NCBI GenBank assembly: GCA_964019415.1
Contig: OZ025869.1
Coordinates: forward strand, 1,076,642-1,140,641
Direction: 5' to 3'
Length of the DNA: 64,000 bases
Source of the DNA: Ianthella basta
Taxonomy: Eukaryota > Porifera > Demospongiae > Verongiida > Ianthellidae
Part shown: in pieces, positions 26,801-29,800 of the stretch
Layout: every line of letters starts with the position of its first letter
How positions within the stretch are numbered: position 1 is the stretch's first letter
Position numbers and translations under genes: made by a program
Notes under the pieces: model-generated
Databases searched by the model: none
Seen by the model: only the letters and a program-made list of their open reading frames with translations
Told to the model about the DNA's origin: nothing

Positions 26801-29800
26801 AATAGTACAAATGTGTACACATCACATTAATTGATAGTGTAACCACAACTGTTGATATGAAGCTGTCCATGCATCTGTATGTACCACCTCCACATCTGAC
26901 ATTACACTGCTAGCATGCCGTATTAATTTTGTGGGATGATACTTTCGTGGGATTTGTGGTTTCAGAAGGGGAATAATGTAATTCGCAAGCATTTAGTGAA
27001 GAGTAGCATAAATAAAAAAATCAATGAAAATCGTAAGATGCCAACAATGACTACTGACACCTTCGCTACATATCTCCATAGGTATAAATATGCTTTGTTA
27101 AATATCAATTACCTATGCAGATTTCTAATATATAGCCATGTGGTAAACCACATTAAATGACTGTTGTTGCCATCATTTGTGCATAAGTGCAAATATGGGT
27201 GGCCCTTTAATATAATAATAGCTAGTTAGCTAGTTAGCAGATTACATGGCAATGTGTGGTCCATACCATTGATTCTTTTGACTGACATACAGTACTTTTT
27301 GAGTCGGTTGTCCCAACCGGATGGTTGCAATTTGTTATTGGTTATCAATTATCAACTACGCAATGCTTCAATAGGCTCTGCACTTTTTGTAAACGGTAAT
27401 GTAACAAGTTATACTATTCTACTTTGATACAAACATTGTACTAGTAGTTTAAAATTGTAGCCTGTCGATACAAAATAAGTGATTCAGAATCCATGAAAGT
27501 ATAAGCACTGCAAAAATAAGGACAATCCATAATCCACAAAATTAACTCCATACAGTTCCACACAACAATACTGACCTGGTATTGCATCTCCTTACCTTGG
27601 ATAGGTCCAGGGTTGGCCTCCACATCGCCAGCCAGGAGTAAAAGTGCTCGCAGGAAGAAATAGGGATGAAGCGACACAACAGGAGACAACATCCTGACAA
27701 GGAGGGCCAAATGCCTTGTGAATGCAAGGCAGGAACTGGAGTCCTTGAACTGTGGGGAGAACAAGGGAAAATCCCTTTGAGACACTGACACATGGTAGAG
27801 AGGAAGTCCAAAGTGATAGAGGAATGTGTTACACATGACACTGTGACAGCTGCAGGATATGCAGAGCAGTGTGGTGGAGCTCACTTACCCTAATGTGGCT
27901 CACACAGGACCTTGGGATGGTAAACGACATCACTGAATGACTACGTACTCTCCTTGCACACTTTAATCCTCTCCGTAGTTTCAGTGAAGGAAATTTCACT
28001 AGCAGACTGCGAAGCTGCTTAGACACTGCTCGGCGCTTGTACCTGCAAAATGAATAGCATCAGGTTAGCATTAACATTCATTACAACTATAACAGAGGTG
28101 CACAAAATATATAAATGTGTATAAAAGTACTTTTCAACAGAACTCACCTCATCCCACCTGAAATACAGACAATGGTTAGAGTTGATAGATGGCATGCTAA
28201 AGTGCACAGGACGTCACATGTCTTCTGGTGTGGGCAGCGTCTGTGACCTACATTTGACAGGAAGTGGTGTCAGTAGCTAACGGAATCAGCTAGTACTGGC
28301 AATGTACTAATAGTACTTGTTTCCATAGCAACACCTCACCTGATGATGAGGTAGCCTTCCGACCTCTCCGCCTCTTGGTCGAGTGAGGGAGTCCTTCATG
28401 TACAATTAATGCCAGGTGGAGGAATAGGTCAAATGCAACCAATGTGGCTTGACAAAGGATGAACTCAAGCTCTTCAGCCGTCTTCTCAATCATGTCATTA
28501 AAGGACGGGTTGTAGCTTGTCACAGTAGGATAAAGATGGGTTTGTCCACTTGGCCCTTTAGGAGCCACAGGAACCTTTATAGCAAGGAGGACAACACAAC
28601 TCCTGGCAGTTGGGAAGGTAACCATGTGCCTGGCCTGATGGTGTGTGCATGGCTACAGCAGTAACTTGTACAAGCTGTGTAGGTTAACCTACGGGAACTG
28701 GGTTCACACATGTACATGTAGGTATGGCAGTGGATTCATATAAAAGAGCCATTAACACAACCAACACAGCCGTGCAATGTCACATCATACCCATGTGGAG
28801 AAGGAGGCAGTACATGCAGTCAGTGACCCTTACTGTGTGAGGACTCCACATTGACAAATGGAGAAGAGTATCTTGTAGTCGGAACTCAAAGGGACTGGTT
28901 TTGAGGTGGTCACCATTCACTGCCGGTAGTGGGCAGCCCAAACGGCACAATCCTGGGTTGTGTGACGTTCCTTCTCCAAACAGACAACTCAAGCAATTGT
29001 CAATCACTTCAGTCCGAGGCCACCCAACACAGAGCAGACCATTACCCAGGTGAGGATTGGGCCAGTTGGGGTCTAAGTACAGAATGGAATAGCAACAAGT
29101 CAATGAACATGGAGCCTGGGTGGAGGTATGACAATGATGACTAAGTGTGATGTGGGCACACTCCACAACAAAGGAGCAGCTCAACAGGTGCTTGGCAGTT
29201 ACATGTACTATGAATCACCAATGTTAGTTTGTACACAGTGTGACACAACTTACACAGAACACACATGCCATGACCAACACACCAACCTGACACTGGTGTC
29301 TCTGAAGGTGAAGGAGTGATGAGCTGTGCTGAGATGCACACAGCCATCCACAGGAATAGACACAGGAAGAGCACACACGTCACTGTTAGAACAAGGAATA
29401 CAACATGTCCTGGAACATTTCCTGGTCTGGCAGGACCAAAGATGGTTGGTCGATAGGTTGGGCGTAAACCACGAGTGGAAGCTCTGTAGCGATTGTGGGA
29501 GTGCCTCATGTTCTACCATGGGACAGAATGAGGGAACTGGTTGAGCAGTGCTTGCATGTTTGTACAACTAGAGGATAAATGGTCAGTAGGAATGATCCAC
29601 CAGTAAAGTATGCAGTACAGAAATGAGATGAGCAGCACTCTCAGATGAAGGATGAGGTGTACAGGGACACAAACACACTACACAACATTACACATGAACA
29701 GGCTCCATCATCTCAAGTTAGATGGGGAATCAGTTTAGCTAGCCAGGTTAATTGGCGTGCCAACTAATTTGGCTAACAACACTGAATATGCACTGAGAGC

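Follow-up and report, generated by a model that had tools for sequence, protein, structure and literature searches.

Each of the NLR genes described here is probably one transcription unit that encodes a membrane-type leader, a 2A site and the NLR itself, and would yield two proteins by ribosome skipping. Viruses, retroelements and some sea-urchin NLRs are known to use such skipping. In the present genome at least 65 receptor genes (counting those for which a NACHT exon lies no more than 10 kb away) apparently have it built in, and perhaps over 130 do. These genes lie in tandem arrays, carry two seemingly unrelated leaders and have relatives with naturally altered skip sites. If this is true, the 2A is a fixture of gene expression in the host, and the genes would offer a natural test of why a receptor is made together with, or tethered to, a membrane leader. 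That NLR genes can contain a 2A is already known; the scale and the two unrelated leaders make the present case more striking.

In the window (the whole stretch of DNA analysed, 64,000 nucleotides in length), 27 nt of the minus strand, 27603-27629, code for GDVEANPGP, and the skip is predicted to fall between the last G and the P of this core. With the base frequencies of the window, the codon pattern of GDVEANPGP is expected by chance about 2e-6 times per 64 kb and 0.006 times per 209 Mb. The hexapeptide ahead of the core is LLLLAG in the leader of the window (type A), and LLLRSG is the commonest form in the second leader (type B); by eye, both fit the Leu-rich 2A class ending in (A/S/C)G, of which motif 6 is active in vitro (PMC12846837). 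The exons of leader A and of the receptor that follows it are as follows.

29287-29509, minus strand: exon E1 (223 nt), with the start ATG, a basic N-terminus and the first hydrophobic (TM-like) segment
28834-29072, minus strand: exon E2 (239 nt), Cys-rich, putatively lumenal or extracellular
28340-28574, minus strand: exon E3 (235 nt), second hydrophobic segment, then a basic run
28148-28157, minus strand: microexon (10 nt), required for the reading frame
27889-28042, minus strand: exon E4 (154 nt), basic segment
27596-27749, minus strand: exon E5 (154 nt), hydrophobic segment and 2A
24658-24939, minus strand: CARD-like exon, in phase with E5
24180-24220, minus strand: linker exon (41 nt, phase 1 to 0), read by eye
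22349-23966, minus strand: NACHT exon (PF05729), borders placed by eye
45939-47865, minus strand: second complete leader-2A module (NLR copy 2, locus L029), with its 2A at 45946-45972
43727-44008, minus strand: CARD-like exon of copy 2, sharing 27% identity with its counterpart in copy 1

By conceptual splicing, E1 and E2 together give 154 codons, and through E3, the microexon, E4 and E5 the frame is unbroken as far as the 2A; E5 ends in phase 1, which the CARD-like exon accepts, and the phase is carried on through the linker to the NACHT exon. The spliced leader A (MRHSH...LLLLAGDVEANPG) places 335 residues ahead of the skip, with hydropathy maxima at residues 36-54 (KD 2.89, in E1), 193-211 (KD 2.03, in E3) and 308-326 (KD 1.51), the second of which is directly followed by the basic run. 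The donor of E2 is most likely the earlier GTAAGG at 28833; a later alternative is lost, by eye, in the copy on contig C4 (L049). Another frame that is open in E1 (MVEH...) was rejected, its ATG being absent from the C4 copy and an early stop being seen by eye in E2. A Pfam search with the leaders returned no family above the cut-off. The earlier note had proposed a 2A following a hydrophobic stretch, exons in phase on both of its sides, and a membrane-type segment with a Cys-rich exon upstream; each of these is borne out by the core and its Leu-rich context, by the hydrophobic E5, by the phases and by the E1 and E2 sequences, "ectodomain-like" here referring to nothing beyond hydropathy and cysteines. 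New to that account are the 10-nt microexon, on which the frame depends, the most likely use of the earlier E2 donor, and the second copy of the whole module in the window.

Some features were also observed upstream of E1. The sequence GGGGATTTCC, which we take to be a kappa-B-like motif, lies approximately 0.8 kb upstream of E1 (within 30292-30176 of the window); a possible 5'UTR exon, which ends before GTGAG, comes after it. Among the 21 copies of the leader aligned, the exact GGGGATTTCC site is found in 10, the form GGGGGTTTCC in 4 more and neither in 7; by eye, the type-B locus L050 also has a kappa-B-like site. The region at 29830-30110 has gaps over much of its stretch in approximately 7 to 11 of the 21 copies. 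A long minisatellite with several open frames, which does not have the appearance of a gene, occupies 31107-33203, and a similar repeat is present upstream of copy 2, near 49.8-50.3 kb.

The conservation of leader A was assessed in an alignment of window copy 1 with 20 further loci (including L029, window copy 2), out of 40 copies known. The splice dinucleotides of the model are kept in all 21 copies, as are the E1 ATG, the E1 donor GTTGGT, the 10-nt length of the microexon, and the donor GTAAGT and acceptor TTTTGCAG of E4. The leader is open in 17 of the 21; L030, L043 and L044 are frameshifted and L046 has a stop. Distinct indels number 5 in the exons (1015 nt) versus 31 in the introns (approximately 900 nt), and the exon indels common to several copies, 9 nt in E2 and 3 nt in E3, are both in frame. 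Larger insertions (462, 689 and 699 bp) were found near window position 28785, in the E2-E3 intron of three of the 21 copies, two of them being alike and TE-like by eye. One copy, L031, has the core GNVEANPGP; Asn in place of the D is part of the extended, active core (PMC12846837). Including its introns, the leader block is mostly 90-99% alike per 40-nt bin across the array, and within the array the introns are about as conserved as the exons.

More distant copies were found on other contigs. The leader protein of the C4 copy is 57-60% identical to the four copies it was compared with, and it retains all exons, their phases and the motif GDVEVNPGP, with a GC donor at the microexon; exon identity to the window copy is 72-80% (microexon 70%), below that of the introns (79-84%). 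The C4 leader has no stop, an outcome that neutral simulation (kappa 3, our choice) gave in 0.1% of runs with the window copy and in 0 of 2000 runs with L029; the corresponding P for E1 and E2 alone was 0.03. No NLR could be shown to follow the C4 copy. The C8 copy (L052) keeps E3, the 10-nt microexon, E4 and E5, and the frame of E3 is kept in both the C4 and C8 copies; the E2 acceptor of the C8 copy is seemingly lost (by eye), and its E1 was not found in the 2.8 kb examined. Outside the genome, leader A has two relatives among database proteins, in a search whose length filter left out shorter exon pieces, and both seem to represent near-identical sequence in which an intron has been read through.

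Substitution rates gave a less uniform picture. For the 17 intact copies omega was 0.93 in E1, 0.25 in E2, 1.26 in E3, 0.53 in E4, 0.35 in E5 and 0.59 overall, and for the C4 copy against four copies it was 0.51-0.60. Neutral-simulation P values for C4 versus window copy 1 were 0.017 (whole leader), 0.03 (E4 and E5), 0.17 (E3) and 0.29 (E1 and E2); versus L029 they were 0.16, 0.024, 0.68 and 0.52, respectively, and for E3 to E5 they were 0.028 between C4 and C8 and 0.059 between the window and C8. The simulations thus failed to give a substitution-rate proof of constraint on E1-E3, for which the substitution evidence of purifying selection is weak, and the claim that the leader is coding therefore rests on its frame, indels, splice sites and freedom from stops. 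So the frame is kept in a fast-evolving sequence, under either diversifying selection or weak constraint. Taken together, the splice sites (21 of 21), the open leaders (17 of 21), the indel counts (5 vs 31) and the phases kept in C4 agree with the proposal of the earlier note that a membrane-type leader runs through the 2A into the NLR in one frame.

Downstream of the 2A, the NACHT identity is firm (PF05729, E 8.2e-17), whereas those of the CARD and LRR parts are not. A CARD match was obtained for one of six sequences, at E 0.0067, and the CARD-like exon matched NLRP1 chains at E 0.7-1, poorer than myosin light chains at 0.03. When four C-terminal exons of copy 2 were joined and searched with Pfam, no LRR family was found. 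Of the CARD, NACHT and LRR exons named in the earlier note, the NACHT therefore stands, the CARD is retained as a weak match and the LRR gave no Pfam match in those four exons. The CARD-like exon was found in 19 of the 21 copies, all 19 with an AG acceptor in phase 1 as E5 requires; it was not seen in L032 and L044 within the stretches examined. A 2A core, a compatible hexapeptide and an in-frame place between two coding regions are all present (17 of 21 leaders, 19 of 19 CARD-like exons). One leader block precedes two CARD-like types (27% identical), and the NACHT exons that follow it, seen in 18 of the 21 copies including copy 1, are 40-94% identical to that of copy 1.

To place the window in its genomic context, exact matches to GDVExNPGP were counted, of which the genome has 302, compared to none for the reversed-pattern control; GDIExNPGP has 52. 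Contig C2 has two tandem arrays, which include the 2A of the window and total 53 exact motifs of types A and B together: 40 lie at 1.10-2.16 Mb, and another 13 at 3.61-3.90 Mb. The type-A exons scored were the best 40 of 59 for the 2A exon, the best 40 of 87 for E1, the best 40 of 45 for E2 and all 37 of 37 candidates for E3, and type-A matches on C2 are on the minus strand throughout. Type B gave 108 matches. Among the matches listed, 31 of 34 type-A exons on C2 carry the exact motif (the exceptions being one D-to-N change and two partial matches without the motif), as do, for type B, 23 of 23 on C2 and 34 of 35 on C4 at 4.07-8.31 Mb. This stretch of C4 was seen to hold a large plus-strand array of type-B leaders, with motifs of the GDIETNPGP type and with NACHT exons downstream, often approximately 8 kb off.

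The association with NACHT exons was counted for 40 type-A and 94 type-B 2A exons (14 weak type-B matches left out) against 130 NACHT places, the best 130 of 434 candidates scored. A NACHT exon on the same strand lies 0-10 kb downstream of 31 of the 40 type-A and 34 of the 94 type-B exons, and within 10 kb upstream of none and one, respectively. Within 15 kb the downstream counts rise to 33 and 45, and the upstream counts to 7 and 10, as neighbouring genes come into range. Conversely, a 2A exon lies 0-15 kb upstream of 74 of the 130 NACHT exons.

Leader B has approximately 130 residues in one open frame ahead of the 2A; from MPIS to NPG its exon encodes 139 residues in L050 and 134 in L051. 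Its omega was 0.59, with a neutral P of 0.045 and a no-stop P of 0.045. BLASTP between leaders A and B gave no match better than E 4, which suggests that the two are unrelated. We examined 73 database homologues of leader B: 62 retain the motif D(V/I)ExNPGP, with eight different residues (T, A, S, P, M, R, I or V) occurring at x. In the other 11 the exact motif is missing: seven have an altered NPGP, namely NAGP, SPGP, NPSP, NPNP, NPDP, NPDP and NPKP (in P0133, P0136, P0140, P0145, P0147, P0153 and P0158, in that order), one each has DME or NVE for DVE, one is broken within NPGP and one lacks this end. The seven with an altered NPGP are possible natural non-skipping receptors. The homologue P0160 has a best identity of 62% to this genome over most of its length (68-70% in short pieces), and its most likely source is therefore another genome, in which leader B would then also occur.

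If each gene is indeed one leader-2A-NLR unit, the ribosome would start at the E1 ATG and synthesize the 335-residue leader, in which two hydrophobic segments, the first of them N-terminal, flank a Cys-rich loop and the second is followed by a basic tail. The positive-inside tendency would place both ends of the leader in the cytosol and the Cys-rich loop in the lumen or exterior; the simplest reading is a two-pass leader of this topology and an NLR released to the cytosol. At the 2A the glycyl-prolyl bond would mostly not be formed, the leader would be released, and the same ribosome would continue into a cytosolic NLR that begins with proline (P-I-Q) and proceeds through the CARD-like domain and NACHT to the C-terminal exons. 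The third hydrophobic segment would reside in the ribosome tunnel during skipping and become the C-terminal tail of the leader, and an occasional failure to skip would produce a membrane-tethered leader-NLR fusion. An additional suggestion, which we make tentatively and consider doubtful, is that the leader works together with the receptor, as a sensor or adaptor anchored in the membrane, and is produced from one message in near-equal numbers with each NLR. The near-uniform leader and the diversifying CARD-like and NACHT parts would then represent a constant membrane subunit paired with variable cytosolic receptors, an arrangement reached twice, with unrelated leaders.

One alternative explanation is that the 2A exon is only an N-terminal signal in the sea-urchin style, in which case transcripts would begin in or just before E5, the hydrophobic stretch and 2A would form the N-terminus, and failed skipping would send the NLR to the secretory path. 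An in-frame Met precedes the core within E5 in 18 of the 21 copies, and a start there would resemble the 26-residue 2As of sea urchin (PMC4981915). However, this Met is missing in the other three (two substitutions and the frameshift of L030) and in the C8 copy, and lies elsewhere in C4, whereas the E1 ATG is kept in all 21 and in C4, and the splice sites and frame of the upstream exons are kept as well. The introns from E3 to E5 are short in the window (182, 105 and 139 nt), which gives a promoter little space, and in type B the 130 or so residues ahead of the 2A form a single open frame. The earlier note named a start just upstream of the 2A exon as the finding that would count against its arrangement; such a start is weakened by the E5 Met missing from three copies and the E1 ATG present in 21 of 21, and we regard this explanation as quite improbable.

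A second scenario, in our judgement unlikely, is that the upstream exons are decaying coding sequence riding with a homogenised promoter block, so that the leader is functionless and the 2A matters only for its removal. The omega values near 1 in E1 and E3, the weak selection P values, the four broken leaders among the 21, the similarity of the block with its introns, and the E1-like piece that L050 carries, out of frame by eye, in a type-B locus are consistent with decay; the deficit of exon indels, the C4 leader without stops and the omega of E2 and E5 argue against it. It may also be that the 2A does not skip in this organism and that the product is a single membrane-anchored NLR fusion. 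Putative membrane-bound NLRs have been reported from sponges (PMC12909245), and seven of the 73 leader-B homologues have an altered NPGP. Nevertheless, the core and context match active elements, the D-to-N core of L031 is a variant reported active (PMC12846837), and 62 of the 73 homologues retain the core apart from the variable position x; the absence of skipping is accordingly very unlikely in our view.

The leader-2A-NLR unit can be compared with known systems. Odon et al. (2013) reportedly described 2A sequences in APE-type non-LTR retrotransposons. Five of eight loci inspected on C1 (L002, L003, L004, L006 and L007) show, by eye, a leader with a hydrophobic stretch followed by an L-rich 2A, and in at least L003 and L006 endonuclease-like sequence follows the 2A. 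These five appear to be ORFs of retroelement type in which leader and 2A follow each other as they do in the NLR genes, and many of the 302 genome motifs need not be NLRs. The NLR genes share with the retrotransposon 2As a hydrophobic leader and then an L-rich 2A; unlike a non-LTR retrotransposon ORF, with its endonuclease downstream, CARD-like and NACHT exons follow the 2A in the window. A derivation of the NLR leaders from retroelement leaders was rejected, BLASTP against four of the latter giving no significant match (best E 0.15).

The core octapeptide with a hexapeptide ending in (A/S/C)G is as in motifs 2 and 6 of the L-rich StopGo/2A class (PMC12846837); the L-rich set in that source is viral, whereas here the elements belong to cellular receptor genes. 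In the accessible part of the account of sponge NLRs (PMC12909245), "2A-like" and "skipping" have no occurrences, PMC5890393 yielded nothing of relevance, and in the literature searched (most subscription papers lying outside it) we found neither a long multi-exon membrane-type leader ahead of an NLR 2A nor a pair of unrelated leaders in that position. Another comparable system is the sea-urchin SpNLR2A, whose tested elements, 26 residues long, stand at the extreme N-terminal end and function as a signal (PMC4981915). As in SpNLR2A, the 2A here lies in the N-terminal part of NLR genes with a hydrophobic stretch ahead of its core, and both skipping and membrane targeting are plausible. Sea-urchin 2As have also been described within the N-terminal region (PMC4981915), and internal placement as such is therefore not new. 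The earlier note, which set 2As at sea-urchin NLR N-termini apart from a leader-2A-NLR layout, is supported: unlike the extreme N-terminal SpNLR2A, by gene model 335 (A) or approximately 139 (B) residues precede the skip here, and leader A, spread across six exons, has two hydrophobic segments as well as a Cys-rich part.
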